From positions 1 through 31,615 of the IMG/VR virus record IMGVR_UViG_3300022699_000181: a DNA stretch of 31,615 nucleotides; one strand, given 5' to 3'. Below are positions 6,930-26,859 of the stretch, one piece after another; position 1 is the first letter of the stretch, and the number at the start of each line of letters is the position of its first letter. The position numbers and the translations under genes are program-made. The DNA is from a virus. The notes beneath the pieces were generated by a model. The model was given only the letters and a program-made list of their open reading frames with translations. It ran no database searches and was not told the DNA's origin.

Positions 6930-7900
6930 TCCTCGTACCACTCCCCGTTAATTTTAACGTAATTAGTACCGCCTATGGATTTTCTTTGTTGGATAGTGGG
7001 TTTTTTATTTTTATCTTCTTTCTTAGGCAAATTAATGGGAAGTCCCATAGCAGTAAACAGACTTTGTGCCTTCGACAAATCATCAATGGCCAAATCATGA
7101 CGTTTTTTAACTTCATTTTGTAATTCTTTGGGTAAATTAGCGGCTATCAATGGAAGGCCTTCCGCCCATCCCTGAGTTAATGCTTCAGTTTGATGGTCGA
7201 TGGCAGGAACTGTTGCTCTTCCACCTTGTGCGTTTAATTGCATTAGTGCATATTCAGGAACTAAACGCTGTGCGACAGCCGCATTAACTAACCGCTCACC
7301 AATTTGTTTTTTTAAGTTTGGATCGTTAGTCGTATTATATAAAAAACGATCATAAGCCAATTTAATATTGCTTCCCGTTCCAACATAGGGTTGATTAAAA
7401 TGCTTACTCATAACCTCTCTGGTTTTATTGGCAACCTGTTTTTTTTGTATATCAGTTAATGCTCCTGTCGTAGGTCTTTGCACTAATTTTCCATCAACAA
7501 TTTGTGCACCGCCTCCACTTTGGCGACCTCCTTGTTGAAAACTAACTGCACCGGTGGAGGGGTCAACGGTTAGAGAGGTGCCCGTCCCTTCGGCTAATCG
7601 TTTAGCATATTGTTCAGCCATTTTAGCCTGAGGAGAATCAGCACCATATTGTTGTTGAACACGTGTAATGCCCATCAGAGCCTTTTCAAGATTCGTCCTT
7701 TCGGGTTTTGGAGGCTGTAGGGCTTTTTGAATTTGCGCTTGTTTCAATAAATTAGACATTAATTCACTTTGCGCTTTTTGACGCGCTTGAACGGGCAATT
7801 GCGCGGCTTGAAAACCCTGTGCTAACGACTGTGGTAAATTGCGAACTCCTGAATAGCCCAGAGGGTTTATACCTGCAAAATTAACCGGTTGAAAGGCCAT
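6926..7900 (-). CDS. Ejection protein candidate, gp20-like position (324 aa)
   Basis: The ATG at 7900 follows GGAG by six bases. The TTG at 7912 is open but unsupported. The protein begins MAFQPVNFAGINPLGYSGVR and continues with Gln/Ala-rich helices (QAAQLPVQARQKAQSELMSN). A Gly/Gln linker of low complexity follows near residue 140. It ends in a Lys-rich segment and a short strand, TNYVKINGEWYEE. The Gln-rich, Cys-free, helical composition is usual for DNA-ejection proteins of short-tailed phages, which leave the capsid through a narrow channel. It lies between two other ejection candidates and overlaps the next start by four bases. Assignment to gp20 is positional only. Confidence 0.58.
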   Translation of the reverse strand: MAFQPVNFAGINPLGYSGVRNLPQSLAQGFQAAQLPVQARQKAQSELMSNLLKQAQIQKALQPPKPERTNLEKALMGITRVQQQYGADSPQAKMAEQYAKRLAEGTGTSLTVDPSTGAVSFQQGGRQSGGGAQIVDGKLVQRPTTGALTDIQKKQVANKTREVMSKHFNQPYVGTGSNIKLAYDRFLYNTTNDPNLKKQIGERLVNAAVAQRLVPEYALMQLNAQGGRATVPAIDHQTEALTQGWAEGLPLIAANLPKELQNEVKKRHDLAIDDLSKAQSLFTAMGLPINLPKKEDKNKKPTIQQRKSIGGTNYVKINGEWYEE

Positions 7901-18823: not shown

Positions 18824-19341
18824 TAATAATCCTTTTTATGTTTCTCATCTAACTGACTGCGCAACTCCATTAGTTCATTGCGTAGCGCATCGTTTTCACC
18901 TTCAAGTGACTCGATTTTGCGTTGCTCTCCGTATTGTTTCGGTAATAATTTGGCAGCCAGCCATTTCCTTGTGTCAACACGCAATCGTGAGCGTGCAATG
19001 TACTCGGTATTGCAAACCTCATTACCGTCTTTATCTAACTTGGAATCAAAGTCATCACTGTCAGAAATATCTAAGCATTCTTCAGCCAAAATATCAGCTT
19101 GTTCGAGCTTAGCCTGTGCATATTGGGCAGAAAACTCTGGGTAAAGTCTTCTCCAAAGATTAATTGTGCTTTTTTCTGGAATGTCTTCATAAAGTCGCGT
19201 AAGCTTGAGCAATCCATGACCAGTAGACGCAACCAAATCGCAAATACGCTGAGCCATTTCAGGCGAATAATCAGTTGGCCTTCCGCCTACGCCTTTTCGG
19301 CTTTTCTGCTTTTTCTTTGGCTTCGAATTTCTCTCTGTCAT
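18823..19341 (-). CDS. Terminase small subunit, Sf6-type (172 aa)
   Basis: The N-terminus is very basic (KPKKKQKSRKGVGGRPTDYS). It is followed by a helix-turn-helix-like DNA-recognition region (MAQRICDLVASTGHGLLKLT and IPEKSTINLWRRLYPEFSAQ). Next comes the helical oligomerisation region (YAQAKLEQADILAEECLDIS), including the common pattern ARSRLRVDTRKWLAAKLLPK and then YG, which is characteristic of Sf6 gp1-like small terminases. The end is a coiled coil. It recognises the pac site and recruits the large subunit. The ATG at 19341 overlaps the upstream zinc protein by 71 bases. A pac site has not been located. Confidence 0.85.
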   Translation of the reverse strand: MTERNSKPKKKQKSRKGVGGRPTDYSPEMAQRICDLVASTGHGLLKLTRLYEDIPEKSTINLWRRLYPEFSAQYAQAKLEQADILAEECLDISDSDDFDSKLDKDGNEVCNTEYIARSRLRVDTRKWLAAKLLPKQYGEQRKIESLEGENDALRNELMELRSQLDEKHKKDY

Positions 19342-19522
19342 CGTCTAAATCCTTTTTTTCTTTCACTTTAATTTCTGAAAAATTTGTAGGAATTATAATA
19401 GTTCCTTCTCCATTACAAAGCGGGCATATCACTTCCAGGCCGCCGCAATCGACTAAAGAATAGCCTCCGGACATTTTAAAAACTTTTTTTCTTCCCCGAC
19501 AACGCATGCAATATTTTTTCAT
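19271..19522 (-). CDS. Small zinc-ribbon protein, first gene of the late operon (83 aa)
   Basis: Two CxxC pairs are visible: CMRCRGRKKV near residue 5 and CPLCNGEGTI near residue 34. The CxxCxGxG shape resembles DnaJ-type zinc centres. The C-terminal third is a run of charged Lys, Glu and Arg residues ending KRRRRKAN. It overlaps the TerS start by 71 bases in another frame, which ties it to the packaging operon. It may bind DNA or act as a late regulator, but neither is shown. It is the first gene downstream of the proposed late promoter at 19571-19598. Confidence 0.65.
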   Translation of the reverse strand: MKKYCMRCRGRKKVFKMSGGYSLVDCGGLEVICPLCNGEGTIIIPTNFSEIKVKEKKDLDDDREKFEAKEKAEKPKRRRRKAN

Positions 19523-19570: not shown

Positions 19571-19598
19571 ATTATAAAGCTTATGATTTTATCCACAA
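19571..19598 (-). promoter_or_regulatory. Probable late promoter, minus strand
   Basis: On the minus strand, TTGTGG (19598-19593) is followed by a 16-base spacer and a perfect TATAAT (19576-19571). It lies about 50 bases upstream of the first late gene. Its -35 overlaps the DnaA box at 19589-19597, so DnaA could modulate it. The -35 is imperfect, so an activator or antiterminator may be needed. Confidence 0.5.
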
Positions 19599-19611
19599 AA
19601 TCTGTGTATAA
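19589..19611. promoter_or_regulatory. Inverted pair of consensus DnaA boxes
   Basis: TTATCCACA at 19589-19597 on the plus strand and TTATACACA on the minus strand at 19611-19603, five bases apart. Both fit TTATNCACA exactly. They lie in very AT-rich DNA between the early and late transcription units. Confidence 0.65.
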
Positions 19612-19682
19612 GTCTGTGAAAAAAATCATTAAAGCAACAAACAGCGCGTATGACAAAAAATGGTCATTATTTTATCTTTAAT

Positions 19683-19699
19683 GTAAATATTTTATTGAC
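19683..19699 (+). promoter_or_regulatory. Proposed Cro operator, copy 1
   Basis: GTAAATATTTTATTGAC reads as a near-perfect dyad, GTAAATA-TTT-TATTGAC, with six of seven pairs matching. The same 17 bases, within a 21-base identity, occur at 23186-23202. It overlaps the -35 of the promoter at 19695. The 17-base size is that of lambda-type operators. Confidence 0.55.
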
Positions 19700-19722
19700 A
19701 TTTATTATGCGGCTGCTATAAT
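19695..19722 (+). promoter_or_regulatory. Strong sigma70 promoter, plus strand
   Basis: Perfect -35 TTGACA (19695-19700) and -10 TATAAT (19717-19722) with a 16-base spacer. This is the best promoter in the window. It faces the broken gene at 19775 and the 79-residue gene at 20108. Confidence 0.8.
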
Positions 19723-20683: not shown

Positions 20684-21331
20684 TCATGTCATATTTAACA
20701 TTTTTCTCATAGCTCTCATGGCCTGCTCGTGTGTCATTGGTTTTCCGTCAAAACGTTTTTTTGGTGGCGGAGGCGGGTTATTATCAATCTGCCTCAGTAT
20801 CTTTCCCTCGGCATGTAACTTAATCGCTTCTTTGTAATTTTTTTCAAACTCATGTCTGGTTTTAGACGCTGGAAGTGATCGCAAATCAAAGCTACCTGTT
20901 TTAGACCACGCATAATAAACAACATCATGAGTCCATCGTTTAGTTACCGTTGGATTAGAATTTCTACACGCCTCGTCATAGGCTTCGTCGTAATCAGGCA
21001 AGCCAAGGTCTTTAGGTGTTGGTTGACACCACTTAATAAACTCACCCGGACTGGGAACAAAAGGTTTTTCCATCAAGTAGCATTTATTTAAGCCGTATTG
21101 CAATTGCTCTATGGAGTTTATGCCCGCTGGTACGAAAGCTTTAAGCCAAGTTTTTTTTGCCTGTCGTAGATCGTTTTCCGTAGGCCATGCGTATTGAAAA
21201 GCAGGGAAGTTTGACCTTAATTCTTTGAATAGCCAATTAATAACCTCGGCAGTTTTATGATTATTTGGTTCTGATTGCTCAGAATTGCTCTTTACCTTGT
21301 CCAAGCTAACAAGGTTTGAAATTTTTTCCAT
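20684..21331 (-). CDS. Replication protein P-like helicase loader (215 aa)
   Basis: A lambda P family protein that would load host DnaB at the phage origin. The diagnostic stretch is at residues 48-102: AWPTENDLRQAKKTWLKAFV, then INSIEQLQYGLNKCY and FVPSPGEFIKWC. The C-terminus has a proline run (PPPPPKKRF) before the helix EQAMRAMRKMLNMT. The length (lambda P is 233) fits. Its ATG lies one base after the stop of the O-like gene, as expected for an O-P pair. The N-terminal 30 residues look disordered. Confidence 0.85.
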   Translation of the reverse strand: MEKISNLVSLDKVKSNSEQSEPNNHKTAEVINWLFKELRSNFPAFQYAWPTENDLRQAKKTWLKAFVPAGINSIEQLQYGLNKCYLMEKPFVPSPGEFIKWCQPTPKDLGLPDYDEAYDEACRNSNPTVTKRWTHDVVYYAWSKTGSFDLRSLPASKTRHEFEKNYKEAIKLHAEGKILRQIDNNPPPPPKKRFDGKPMTHEQAMRAMRKMLNMT

Positions 21332-21332
21332 G

Positions 21333-22094
21333 TCAAATTTCCTCTATCCATGAGGTGTCGTCATCGTCATAGTCGGGGTGGCTGTATGATTTACCTTTTC
21401 TTTCTTTGAAATAGTCTGGTTTTAAAGATTGCCATCCGTTTGCAACCATTTCGTCAAAGGCTTCAATGGGAGATATGCCAACCTCTTTTTCAATTTTAGC
21501 TAAAGTGGATTGCAGCCGTGACCAAGCTGTTTTAGTAACAGGGGCACGCTTTGACTTTCTATTTGTTAGCCAGTCTTTAAGGCTTTGCTCAGGGATATTG
21601 TGAGGGTTTGATTTTTTCAAGTCATCAAGGCTCAAAGTATCTTTTTCTTTCTTTCCCCCTTTTAAGGGGGTAGGGGGATTAATATTAATTTCTTTATTTA
21701 TATTCTTTATATTATGGTCTACAGCTGTAGACGTAGAAAGTCTACGCTCGTAGACGTTTAAGTCTACAGCTGTAGACGTTGGTTCAATTTCTGAACAATC
21801 GGTTTCTATGATTTTTTCTGGCTTAATTAAATACCGCTTGCCATTTTTTTTGACGCGCTTAAGTTCATTGTGACTTTCAAAAAATGATAAAGCTTTATAA
21901 ATAACCGCTCTCTTGTACCCTGTACGCTCACATAACGCATCTTCACCCAAAAAACATGTTTTATTTTTATTCCAAAATTGAAAAATAGTTTCGTAGATAT
22001 CGAGGTAGGCTAAAGTCATCCCGTGGAGGTGGCGAATATATCGGGGAATAATGTAAAAAGTATCTTGGTAATCTTTGTTACATGAAACAATCAT
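21333..22094 (-). CDS. Replication initiator, O-like winged-helix protein (253 aa)
   Basis: The N-terminal 90 residues are a winged-helix DNA-binding domain (DYQDTFYIIPRYIRHLHGMT; LCERTGYKRAVIYKALSFFE; a basic wing KRVKKNGKRYLIK). The middle (residues 100-150) is low complexity because the origin iterons are embedded there, seen as two STAVD repeats. The C-terminal region (RAPVTKTAWSRLQSTLAKIE through NGWQSLKPDYF) resembles the domain of O-like and DnaT-like proteins that contacts the helicase loader. The ATG at 22094 follows AAGGA. It precedes the P-like gene by one base. The layout, with the origin in the middle of the initiator gene, is that of lambda O. Confidence 0.82.
   Translation of the reverse strand: MIVSCNKDYQDTFYIIPRYIRHLHGMTLAYLDIYETIFQFWNKNKTCFLGEDALCERTGYKRAVIYKALSFFESHNELKRVKKNGKRYLIKPEKIIETDCSEIEPTSTAVDLNVYERRLSTSTAVDHNIKNINKEININPPTPLKGGKKEKDTLSLDDLKKSNPHNIPEQSLKDWLTNRKSKRAPVTKTAWSRLQSTLAKIEKEVGISPIEAFDEMVANGWQSLKPDYFKERKGKSYSHPDYDDDDTSWIEEI
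21655..21777. other. Replication origin inside the O-like gene
   Basis: There are three palindromic iterons: GTCTACAGCTGTAGAC (21717-21732), GTCTACGCTCGTAGAC (21740-21755) and a copy of the first at 21762-21777, centred 23 and 22 bases apart (two helical turns). Beside them lies an AT-only-like tract at 21679-21715, a likely unwinding element. A hairpin CCCCCTT-TT-AAGGGGG follows at 21655-21670. Lambda ori has the same order: iterons, then an AT-rich stretch, in gene O. Confidence 0.85.
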
Positions 22095-22979: not shown

Positions 22980-23171
22980 TTATTTTTTATAATTAGTGTC
23001 ATTGACATCCGCTTTTAATTTTCCATTCGTTAATTTTTCAAACTTAAATTGATGATGGAGCGGAATATGTCCTGTTTTCTTCCATATATAAAATGCACAA
23101 CGTGTCAGTCCCAACTGAGATGCAGCTTTAGCACCCGAACCGTAATAATCTTTTAATTCATCTAGTGTCAT
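22980..23171 (-). CDS. Cro-like repressor (63 aa)
   Basis: From the ATG at 23171 it reads MTLDELKDYYGSGAKAASQL and has a helix-turn-helix at residues 13-31 (GAKAASQLGLTRCAFYIWKK). This is followed by GHIPLHHQFKFEKLTNGKLK. The pattern DxYGSxxKxAxxLGxxRxAxxxWxxxGxIPxxxQFxxExxTxGKLKA is that of lambda/P22-type Cro proteins. Longer starts (23231, 23204) would put the promoter elements inside the gene. It is transcribed divergently from recE, and probably represses both its own and that promoter through the dyad at 23186-23202. No CI-type partner is found. Confidence 0.85.
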   Translation of the reverse strand: MTLDELKDYYGSGAKAASQLGLTRCAFYIWKKTGHIPLHHQFKFEKLTNGKLKADVNDTNYKK

Positions 23172-23185
23172 CTTTTTATCTTCTA

Positions 23186-23202
23186 GTAAATATTTTATTG
23201 AC
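23186..23202 (+). promoter_or_regulatory. Proposed Cro operator, copy 2
   Basis: Same 17 bases as at 19683-19699 (GTAAATATTTTATTGAC). It overlaps the -35 of the recE promoter and lies just downstream of the -10 of the Cro promoter, so one bound dimer could shut both. Confidence 0.6.
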
Positions 23203-23226
23203 ATTTTAACTGAAAAGAAATAAAAT
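23198..23226 (+). promoter_or_regulatory. Early plus-strand promoter (pL-like) for the recE operon
   Basis: TTGACA (23198-23203), 17-base spacer, TAAAAT (23221-23226), 40 bases before the recE start. It overlaps the opposing Cro promoter at both ends. Confidence 0.75.
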
Positions 23227-23231
23227 AACAA
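23203..23231 (-). promoter_or_regulatory. Early minus-strand promoter (pR-like) for the Cro operon
   Basis: On the minus strand: TTGTTA (23231-23226), 17-base spacer, TAAAAT (23208-23203). Its -35 shares a base with the -10 of the recE promoter, and its -10 shares a base with that promoter's -35, so polymerase cannot occupy both at once. Confidence 0.65.
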
Positions 23232-23265: not shown

Positions 23266-24171
23266 ATGAAAAAAATATTTAAAGACGGAATTTATGACAT
23301 TTCCAATGAAGATTATCACGCATCTACAGCAATTTCCCGCTCTCAATTAAAATTACTTGATAAGTCCCCTTATCATTTCTGGTATGAGGTATTAAGCGGT
23401 GAGGCTGAGAAAAAAGAGCCAACACCTGCTATGCGCCTTGGTTCGGCTTTTCACACGTTGCTTTTAGAACAACATTTGTTTGATAAAGAATACATTGTGA
23501 AACCGGATGTAGAAACCTTGCCGAAACTAGACAGAAAAAAAGATGTAGGGGCAGAAGAATACGAACGTCAAAAGGCGAAACAGGAAGAGCAGCGGGCTTA
23601 TAATAAGCGCTTGCTTGATGAGTTTGAATTAAAGAAAGACAACAAAATTGTTTTGAATCAAAAAGAATATGATACGGTTCGCGAAATGGTGTCTCTTGCA
23701 AAACGACATGAGATTGTCAAAACATTGGTAGATGAATCGCTGTATGAAAAATCCATTTTCTGGACGGACAAAGAAACAGGAATTCAATTTCGAGCACGTC
23801 CTGATATCTGGTCTCCAAATATGATAGTGGATGTAAAAACCACGCATTCGGCAAGCTTATATAAAATGACACGTTCCGCATTAGATGAAAGTTACTATTT
23901 GCAGGCAGGCATGATGTATGAAGCCTGTAAGGCCATTGGTAAACCCTTTAAAATGTTTGTCATTTTAGCTATTGAAAAAACAGCCCCTTTTGCACCTGCT
24001 GTTTTTAAACTTTCGGATGACGCGCTTCAGTATGGTATTGATATGTTTCAACTGTATAAAAAACGTTTGAAAAAATGTTTGGATTCTAAACAATGGCCAT
24101 CTTATCCCGTACAGGAATTATCTGTTCCTGAGTTTGCCGTCGAGCAGTTAAAAAATGAGGAAGGACAATGA
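23266..24171 (+). CDS. RecE-like exonuclease (PD-(D/E)XK, exonuclease VIII type, 301 aa)
   Basis: A 5'-3' exonuclease domain that resects DNA ends for the RecT partner. The N-terminus has the family pattern YHASTAISRSQLKLLDKSPY and MRLGSAFHTLLLE. The active site is visible as ARPD (Asp180) and IVDVKTT (Asp189, Lys191), followed by YYLQAGMMYEA, the usual Q-containing helix. The length is that of the catalytic part of E. coli RecE. The stop overlaps the RecT start by four bases. It is the first gene after the pL-like promoter, where lambda carries red and gam in the same operon. Confidence 0.88.
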   Translation: MKKIFKDGIYDISNEDYHASTAISRSQLKLLDKSPYHFWYEVLSGEAEKKEPTPAMRLGSAFHTLLLEQHLFDKEYIVKPDVETLPKLDRKKDVGAEEYERQKAKQEEQRAYNKRLLDEFELKKDNKIVLNQKEYDTVREMVSLAKRHEIVKTLVDESLYEKSIFWTDKETGIQFRARPDIWSPNMIVDVKTTHSASLYKMTRSALDESYYLQAGMMYEACKAIGKPFKMFVILAIEKTAPFAPAVFKLSDDALQYGIDMFQLYKKRLKKCLDSKQWPSYPVQELSVPEFAVEQLKNEEGQ

Positions 24172-25052
24172 GCAACGATTTACAAAACCCAAAAAACGAC
24201 AGCAGTTTAGTCTCGTTATTGAAGAAAATGGCGCCGGAAATAAAAAAATGTTTGCCAGCTCATATTTCTCCTGAACGACTGGCGCGTATTGCATTAACTC
24301 AGGTACGAACTAATCCAAAACTTGCTTTATGCTCTGAAAACTCTTTTTTAGCCTGCTTGATGCAGGCGGCACAATTAGGGCTTGAACCGGGTGTCTTAGG
24401 CTCTTGTTACCTGATACCGAGAAAAAACAAACAAGGCGGCTATGATTGTACGTTTATGCCGGGCTATCGCGGTTTTTTAGATTTAGCGAGACGTTCAGGC
24501 GAGGTGGTCTCTTTAGTAGCAAGAGCCGTTTATGAACAGGATTATTTTGATATTGAATACGGTATCAACAATAAATTAATTCATAGACCTGCTTTGAGGG
24601 ATAAAGGAAAAATTAAAGCAGTCTATGCTATTGCTGCTTTAAAAGATGGAGGTCATCAGTTCGATATTATGAGTGTGGATGATGTAGAAGACATCAGGAA
24701 AAAAAGCGCAGATGCAAAATCGTTCGCATGGAAAGATTACTATGATGAAATGGCCAAAAAAACAGTCGTGCGGCGGTTGTTTAAATGGCTACCCTGCTCA
24801 ATTGAAATTCAACGAGCCGTCGTATTAGATGAACAGCGCGAAGCAGGGGTACAAAATATGGTTCAGGTGGCTTCTGAGGAGTTTGGAAGCAATATCTTTG
24901 ATTCTCAAAATATGGCTTTAGGACACAACAAAAACTCAGAGCAATTAATGCAAACGATAGAAGAGGTGAAAAAATCCGATACATGGGAGTCATCAGCTTT
25001 GCAATCTACGGATGACTTTATTAATGAATTGAACAAAGAGGATAAAGAATAA
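24168..25052 (+). CDS. recT: RecT single-strand annealing protein (294 aa)
   Basis: The RecT family pattern is clear. ERLARIALTQVRTNPKLALC is followed by SFLACLMQAAQLGLEPGVLG, SCYLIPR and MPGYRGFLDLARRSGEVVSL. Later come AKSFAWKDYYDEMAKKTVVR and RLFKWLP. The protein anneals complementary strands made single by the RecE-like nuclease, for replication or recombination of the phage genome. Length and order (exonuclease then RecT, ATGA overlap) match prophage Rac. The acidic C-terminal 60 residues vary in this family and may bind SSB or other partners. The stop TAATG leads straight into a 49-residue gene. Confidence 0.92.
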   Translation: MSNDLQNPKNDSSLVSLLKKMAPEIKKCLPAHISPERLARIALTQVRTNPKLALCSENSFLACLMQAAQLGLEPGVLGSCYLIPRKNKQGGYDCTFMPGYRGFLDLARRSGEVVSLVARAVYEQDYFDIEYGINNKLIHRPALRDKGKIKAVYAIAALKDGGHQFDIMSVDDVEDIRKKSADAKSFAWKDYYDEMAKKTVVRRLFKWLPCSIEIQRAVVLDEQREAGVQNMVQVASEEFGSNIFDSQNMALGHNKNSEQLMQTIEEVKKSDTWESSALQSTDDFINELNKEDKE

Positions 25053-25276: not shown

Positions 25277-25363
25277 ATGAAAACATTATTTTTGGGAATA
25301 ATCGTTTTAATGTTTTCAGATGAATTAAAAAGATTAAAAAAAAGCGGGGAGTTTTATAAATGA
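25277..25363 (+). CDS. 28-residue peptide with one membrane segment
   Basis: AAAGG lies nine bases before the ATG. The peptide starts MKTLFLGIIVLMF, a short hydrophobic run, and ends LKKSGEFYK. Its last codons and the ATGA overlap with the methyltransferase gene match a cassette repeated several times downstream (see the 25334-27138 repeat entry). It may be a genuine small membrane peptide, or the remains of a longer gene whose end was kept because it drives translation of the next gene. Confidence 0.45.
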   Translation: MKTLFLGIIVLMFSDELKRLKKSGEFYK

Positions 25364-25932
25364 AGGTGCTAGTAGCTTGTGAGTTTTCCGGTTTTGTTAG
25401 AGATGCTTTTACTAAAGCAGGTCATTACGCGGTAAGCTGTGACTTATTAGACACGGAAAGACCAGAGGGGATGCACTGGACTGGAGATGTATTGAAAATC
25501 ATAAATGAAGGATGGGATATGATGATAGCTCACCCCCCATGTACCTACATAAGCAACATGAGTAATTGCAGAATTCACGAGCCGGGTGGAAAAGAAAAAA
25601 GGCGTGAAGGCATGGAGTTTTTTATGAAGCTTGTAAATGCTGATATTCCGTTAATTGCAATAGAAAATCCACGCGGCTTACCGGAAAGAGAGTATAGAAA
25701 GGCTGATCAAATCATTCATCCTTATCATTTTGGGCACCCTGTTTCAAAACAAACATGTTTATGGTTGAAAGGATTACCGTTGCTTAAACATACCAACATA
25801 GTTGAGCCTGAGCGAAAGTGGGATGGAAAGCGTTGGCGAACTTGGGTGGATACTTGTAAATCACATACTGGTAAATATAGATCGGTTACATTTCAGGGCA
25901 TTGCTGATGCCATGGCAGAGCAATGGGGATAG
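25360..25932 (+). CDS. Phage C5 cytosine DNA methyltransferase-like protein (190 aa)
   Basis: A short Dcm-like enzyme of the type common in phages. The SAM site is VLVACEFSG (residues 3-11), with CDLL at 27-30. The catalytic motif IV is HPPC at 58-61, whose Cys61 would attack cytosine, and IENP at 101-104 is motif VI. The C-terminus (ERKWDGKRWRT then VTFQGIADAMAEQWG) matches the conserved end of this phage group. There is no separate target-recognition domain, so the sequence specificity is unclear. It may protect phage DNA from host restriction. No partner nuclease is nearby. Confidence 0.8.
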   Translation: MKVLVACEFSGFVRDAFTKAGHYAVSCDLLDTERPEGMHWTGDVLKIINEGWDMMIAHPPCTYISNMSNCRIHEPGGKEKRREGMEFFMKLVNADIPLIAIENPRGLPEREYRKADQIIHPYHFGHPVSKQTCLWLKGLPLLKHTNIVEPERKWDGKRWRTWVDTCKSHTGKYRSVTFQGIADAMAEQWG

Positions 25933-25992
25933 AGATGAAGGTTAGAAAAACTTTTAGACTATATTATGCAAACACTGCAAGGAGTTTTATAA

Positions 25993-26157
25993 ATGAATAA
26001 CTTTACGAAAAAAACAGATAAAGAAAAACAGCCTACACAGAAAACTAATCATCATCCAAGTTGCCCAAGATGCACCGGTAAATATAAAGCTATTGGTTCA
26101 TTGAAGGTAAAATATACTATTTGCCCTAAATGTGAAGGGGGAGTTTTTTATGAATGA
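25993..26157 (+). CDS. Small zinc-ribbon protein (54 aa)
   Basis: It starts MNNFTKKTDKEKQPTQKTNH. CPRC and CPKC, 19 residues apart, form a likely zinc ribbon, and it ends GGVFYE. AAGGAG lies before the ATG. The start resembles the MNDFTK starts of the next genes, and the end belongs to the repeated CxxC cassette. It may bind nucleic acid or a protein partner. The stop overlaps the following ATG by eight bases. Upstream (25935-25996) a decayed copy of the cassette can be read with two stops. Confidence 0.6.
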   Translation: MNNFTKKTDKEKQPTQKTNHHPSCPRCTGKYKAIGSLKVKYTICPKCEGGVFYE

Positions 26158-26650: not shown

Positions 26651-26721
26651 AGTAAACGTACGGTAAAGGTTGGTAATGATGGTAAATTTATTAAGTGCAA
26701 ACACTGCGGGGATTTTTATAG

Positions 26722-26859
26722 ATGAAAATAGTAACAATCTATGCAGTAATTACAGCACTGGCATTGTCCGTTGTATTTTTTATAGAGCGTTATAAATTCA
26801 AAGACTGCAAACAAGTTGGACATACAACGCTTTATTGTATCTTTGATATGGTAAAATAA
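26722..26859 (+). CDS. Small single-span membrane protein (45 aa)
   Basis: The start overlaps the TGA that ends the extended frame of the previous gene. The first 20 residues (MKIVTIYAVITALALSVVFF) form one membrane helix. A basic stretch follows, then a tail with two Cys (DCKQVGHTTLYCIF). An uncleaved signal anchor with the tail outside is likely. No family is known to me. It could be a holin- or spanin-like helper, or a membrane effector made early; its place among early genes favours the latter. Confidence 0.55.
   Translation: MKIVTIYAVITALALSVVFFIERYKFKDCKQVGHTTLYCIFDMVK

Follow-up and report, generated by a model that had tools for sequence, protein, structure and literature searches.

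How are two divergent early operons controlled when their promoters overlap and the only recognisable regulator is a Cro? This question is raised by the viral DNA analysed here (the window, 31,615 nucleotides; IMG/VR record IMGVR_UViG_3300022699_000181), in which a recE-like gene and a cro gene are read in opposite directions from interlocked promoters. A preliminary description took the junction to be a minimal switch consisting of a single operator, Cro and polymerase competition.

Genome organization

The first 99 bases of the window are identical to its last 99, an end repeat which closes the genome at 31,516 bp. To the left of the interlock lie cro, small ORFs, an O-like gene with iterons, a P-like loader gene and the gene of a cold-shock protein, followed by genes for the zinc-finger protein, terminase, portal and coat. 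In the rightward direction the order is recE, recT, a methyltransferase gene, small ORFs and ssb. The two early operons diverge, one comprising cro-O-P and the other the recombination genes.

23266-24171, plus strand: recE-like exonuclease gene (PDDEXK; family scans), heading the rightward early operon
24168-25052, plus strand: gene for a recT-like annealing protein (family scans)
22980-23171, minus strand: cro, N15/P22-type Cro of 63 aa from the ATG at 23171
21333-22094, minus strand: O-like replication initiator gene, in the leftward operon after cro
20684-21331, minus strand: gene for a P-like helicase loader (family scans)
19271-19522, minus strand: zinc-finger gene before terS, with weak similarity to DnaJ CXXCXGXG

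Three palindromic iterons (GTCTACAGCTGTAGACGT; two identical, one with changes) occupy positions 21717-21779 inside the O-like gene and probably mark the replication origin. Upstream of O, a 53-aa ORF at 22232-22393 matches part of the lambda P family (3.9e-9) and represents a second, partial helicase loader copy. Three similar 28-bp repeats (25337-25364, 25970-25997 and 26699-26726), each holding a ribosome-binding site and start region, precede small rightward ORFs. A megablast search against phage records gave no match, and a RecT query of viral contigs recovered no relative.

Interlocked recE and cro promoters

Promoters were scored against the E. coli sigma-70 consensus, from which the sigma-factor preferences of the host may differ.

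23198-23226, plus strand: recE promoter, TTGACA (23198-23203), 17 bp, TAAAAT (23221-23226); 11/12; predicted start ~23233
23203-23231, minus strand: cro promoter, TTGTTA (23231-23226), 17 bp, TAAAAT (23208-23203); 9/12; predicted start ~23196

The two promoters interlock within 34 bp. Base 23203 is common to the recE -35 and the cro -10, and base 23226 to the recE -10 and the cro -35, so that each -10 meets the other promoter's -35 exactly as had been described. No -10 is shared, and the predicted starts lie ~37 bp apart. In a genome-wide scan for opposing pairs (each promoter at least 9/12, spacer 17), this was the only opposite-strand pair with outer ends 21-60 bp apart. Simulated genomes yielded 0.005 pairs of 34-bp span scoring at least 20/24, and shuffling the 91-bp intergenic region 20,000 times never produced the score of the recE/cro pair. 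The interlocked geometry exceeds chance.

Because the opposing promoters overlap completely, two polymerases could not be expected to bind together, and the mutual exclusion proposed earlier agrees with this layout. Where promoters overlap and a -35 is strong, competition between polymerases has been shown to matter (Warman et al. 2026, PMC12825309), and both the recE and the cro promoter have good -35 boxes. With a cro start near 23196, translation would begin at the ATG at 23171, an upstream ATG at 23204 falling outside the transcript.

Cro and the first operator

The cro product matches P22_Cro (PF14549) at 7.8e-10, with 38.8 bits against a cut-off of 30.2. Its AlphaFold model (pLDDT 81.5) has the predicted all-alpha fold of N15/P22 Cro and is nearest to N15 Cro, operator complex included (Foldseek: 6on0/2hin, E ~2e-4 to 8e-4; 1rzs, probability 1.00). 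A profile of ten Cro relatives, compared with solved structures, found N15 Cro, P22 Cro and Xfaso1 Cro. What had been called a Cro-like protein can accordingly be named a Cro, and it is the only candidate regulator found for the operators described here.

23186-23202, no strand assigned: putative operator 1, GTAAATATTTTATTGAC, an imperfect 7-3-7 dyad (7-base arms with 6 pairs, 3-base loop)

This dyad covers five of the six bases of the recE -35, at about -47 to -31 of the recE promoter. It abuts the cro -10 and, relative to the predicted cro start, extends from about -6 to +11. The earlier statement that the 17-base dyad touches both promoters holds for the recE -35 and needs correction as regards the cro -10, which is abutted and not covered. 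Given that the operator spans these parts of both promoters, one dimer should block both. A larger inverted repeat at 23191-23227, with 9-bp arms, was set aside as an operator because it is absent at the second promoter described below (P2), whereas the 17-mer recurs there.

Absence of a recognisable CI

Pfam model searches of the window found no S24 peptidase, HTH_3 repressor, integrase or resolvase, neither the tyrosine integrase nor the serine resolvase type giving a match. Family scans of most predicted genes likewise revealed no CI-like or second DNA-binding repressor. For this genome, complete by virtue of its 99-bp end repeat, the claim that CI is missing is supported, as is the more specific one that neither cI nor pRM lies between the recE and cro promoters. 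The phage thus appears to encode no recognisable CI, a repressor of unknown type being still conceivable. Cro is kept and lysogeny genes are absent from a complete genome, as in a CI-less virulent derivative. Judging from this gene content, the phage is probably CI-less and virulent, or obligately lytic; it may have lost a CI arm or never had one. A search of ~85,000 bacterial and archaeal genomes, limited to close relatives, found no relative of its TerL.

A second operator over promoter P2

19683-19699, no strand assigned: putative operator 2, an exact copy of operator 1; identity runs to 19703, making a 21-mer
19695-19722, plus strand: promoter P2, TTGACA, 16 bp, TATAAT with TG extension; the best promoter score of the genome
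20108-20347, plus strand: 79-aa ORF predicted to be transcribed from P2, with an L014 homologue in the equal antisense position

The preliminary description was wrong in counting one operator, since this exact second 17-mer sits over the -35 of P2. A genome search with the control region also found 19663-19703. The longest exact match of the intergenic region elsewhere in the genome is 21, against an expectation of 12-14 and a simulation maximum of 16-17. P2 points away from the zinc-finger gene, and its transcript would run antisense to the late genes.

Other features lie nearby. Two perfect DnaA boxes in inverted orientation (TTATCCACA and TTATACACA) occupy 19589-19611, upstream of the zinc-finger gene and ~80 bp from operator 2; the genome has no others of the TTATNCACA form, and the close relative L036 has TTATTCACA at the equivalent place. 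The pair is possibly an origin or a DnaA-responsive element. The first frame after P2 (19775-20066), read by eye, resembles a gene broken by a frameshift in an A run and an in-frame TGA.

Early regions of related phages

Relatives were gathered via TerL. Most are metagenomic contigs and several are incomplete (G004, for instance, comprises 14.6 kb); absence of CI is firm only for closed records. The exonuclease gene and cro are direct divergent neighbours, no cI separating them, in L011/G004, L047/G022, L051/G011, L052/G010 and L054/G006. In G004/L011, whose recE is 42% and Cro ~40% identical to those of the window, the junction keeps the 34-bp interlock, pairing TTGACA/17/TAATAT with TTGCCA/17/TAACAT through one common base at each end. 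A 36-bp version occurs in G006, and in both G004 and G006 the interlocked pair is the only such pair in the record. The promoters of G010 stand back to back with overlapping -35s, not interlocked, and those of exo and cro in G011 and G022 are separated. Promoter overlap is common among the relatives, its form varies, and interlocking is not universal.

L036, a close relative (TerS 91%), carries the 17-mer with one mismatch over TTGACA/17/TATTAT at the place equivalent to operator 2; its dyad has 5 of 7 pairs as compared with 6 of 7 in the window. The zinc-finger gene before terS serves as the landmark of P2 across relatives, a promoter diverging from it in the window, L036, G004, G006, G011, G022 and L014.

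Some relatives carry additional regulators or recombinases. The recE operon of G004, unlike that of the window, holds a second Cro: this paralogue (L011:211-405) places Cro on both sides, and the available part of the record shows no CI. At least two Cro genes occur in G009. Small serine resolvases, absent from the window, are found in G010, G011, G022 and G009, near the zinc-finger gene in at least the first three. Two groups were rejected as examples of the same variant. In L057/L058 (Cro 47%) the layout differs, with a small HTH-like gene upstream of cro; in L050 and L053 a true HTH_3 gene diverges from Cro, making them CI/Cro-like relatives.

Putative operators match within genomes and differ between them

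When the exo/cro region was matched against the second promoter of its own genome, the scores were 23.4 in the window, 21.4 in G004, 20.7 in G006 and 18.3 in G010, a range (18.3-23.4) reached by none of 300 shuffles. Matches between genomes were mostly ~8-14, and the highest (17.1 and 16.9) are probably AT-rich overlaps. The motifs themselves differ. The motif AA(G/C)TTAATTAATTAT(C/T)TGTTGACA is common to the recE promoter of G004 and the promoter that diverges from its zinc-finger gene. G006 has TGTCTAAA(A/T)TA(G/C)TTGACA at the exo/cro region and the second promoter. G010 carries ATATCAAC(A/G)G(A/G)CGTTTAG in the exo promoter and in a promoter at 7365; a perfect dyad, CTAAACGCCCGTTTAG, is present in its zinc-finger-divergent promoter, and 13/16 copies of it lie at exo/cro as well as at a third promoter. 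No significant match between these two regions was obtained for G011 and G022, which were rejected statistically as further cases of a common operator; in each of them, the promoter diverging from the zinc-finger gene is strong and has a dyad of its own in the P2 spacer.

Different motifs in each genome, paired inside each, are as predicted for a phage-encoded regulator that changes together with its sites. Cro is the candidate for this co-evolving regulator.

A proposed early circuit and its alternatives

Taken together, the arrangement is probably a CI-less, lambda-like early circuit, in which Cro at two identical operators would shut off recE-recT, its own gene and one further early operon, the third, with polymerases competing at the interlock. 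On infection, host polymerase would fire only one of the two interlocked promoters at any moment, producing the rightward recombination operon (recE-recT) and the leftward replication operon (cro-O-P), and the separate strong promoter P2 would fire too. Polymerase exclusion would make the two interlocked operons alternate before Cro accumulates. Accumulating Cro would then bind the identical 17-bp operator at both sites: at 23186-23202 one dimer would cover the recE -35 and the cro start and so stop both promoters, and at 19683-19699 it would cover the P2 -35. The outcome would be a self-limiting early pulse that ends early transcription, and shutting off P2 would also halt the transcription that opposes the late genes.

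The earlier view that Cro and polymerase competition form the whole switch is not supported. With no second repressor there is no second stable state, and a single regulator that represses everything gives negative feedback, here over three promoters from two sites, which produces an early pulse followed by shut-off. The circuit is therefore probably a timer for early genes. A broader proposal is tentative, and somewhat less likely than not: that in a CI-less lineage the immunity region known from lambda has become a distributed pulse timer run by Cro, whose operators, particular to each genome, co-evolve both at the exo/cro junction and at the zinc-finger-divergent promoter antisense to the late genes, and whose interlock forces the recombination and replication operons to fire alternately.

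A two-state device is unlikely. Such a switch would hold the phage in a recombination (recE) or a replication (cro-O-P) mode through polymerase exclusion and Cro. The full overlap of the promoters and their strong -35 boxes fit this idea, as exclusion is known at overlapping promoters with one strong direction (PMC12825309), but the single regulator would repress both directions, no product of the recE side represses cro, and mutual repression is what memory would demand.

It is improbable, too, that the 17-mer is the site of a host regulator exploited by the phage, with motifs varying as hosts vary. Among 2.9 million viral contigs the exact 21-mer has one match, L003:7859-7879, where it creates a strong promoter (TTGACA/17/TAGAAT) ahead of the terminase genes; the phage contig is unrelated to the window and gives no P22_Cro match. 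This leaves the host factor a small chance; the match itself was judged near the chance rate. In ~85,000 bacterial and archaeal species genomes (257 Gb), the 21-mer occurs in two, once each, which argues against repeated use in any sampled species, although the host of the window may be unsampled. Least credible of all is that operator 2 arose by recent recombination or is a -35 coincidence, of no regulatory meaning, since, although identity is confined to 21 bp with differing flanks, L036 has its one-mismatch copy at the equivalent place and three other genomes show equal pairing with different sequences.

Relation to known systems

The proposed timer resembles the lambda/P22 immunity region in having cro first in a replication operon before O and P, a diverging recombination operon, and early promoters with a common operator sequence. 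It differs in that CI/Cro phages have cI separating the promoters and OL/OR operator sets of three, whereas here there is no CI or pRM, the promoters interlock within 34 bp, operators are single, and the other copy lies 3.5 kb away over a promoter reading against late genes. Two components of the lambda-type bistable switch, a CI-type repressor gene and an integrase, were not found in the window. In E. coli bioA/bioB and Tn10 tetR/tetA, a single operator governs two overlapping opposing promoters. Those systems control metabolic or resistance genes, not phage early operons, and are not known to have a co-varying remote operator.

The immB region of N15, PY54 and phiKO2 (PMC4488713) offers the closest solved structure and fold, that of N15-type Cro. 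A lone operator can be enough for Cro to act in PY54, and in N15 the sites bound by the repressor CB include remote OL sites that lie upstream of repA (PMC4488713). These phages differ in being temperate, with a prophage repressor of which none was found in the window. Virulent Streptococcus thermophilus phages, thought to derive from temperate ancestors, likewise keep cro-like genes and lack integrase (PMC5338259), in a different host group; neither promoter interlocking nor a second operator that co-varies was found described for them (PMC5338259). Bacterial bidirectional promoters, with a common -10, starts 7-25 bp apart and pseudo-symmetric DNA (PMC12825309, PMC10268837), are alike in that the DNA is read both ways and polymerases exclude each other. 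The recE/cro pair falls outside this class, as its -10s meet the other promoter's -35 and its predicted starts are farther apart.

Thus cro without integrase is already known, whereas interlocked exo/cro promoters combined with a remote, co-varying second operator were not found described in a small search of open papers. At this locus the best-studied genetic switch occurs naturally without CI, which lets the role of Cro without a lysogeny decision be asked directly. The co-varying operator pairs are natural pairs of Cro and operator specificity, useful for the recognition rules of all-alpha Cro proteins, and at the 34-bp interlock competition between polymerases could be tested in a compact natural setting.
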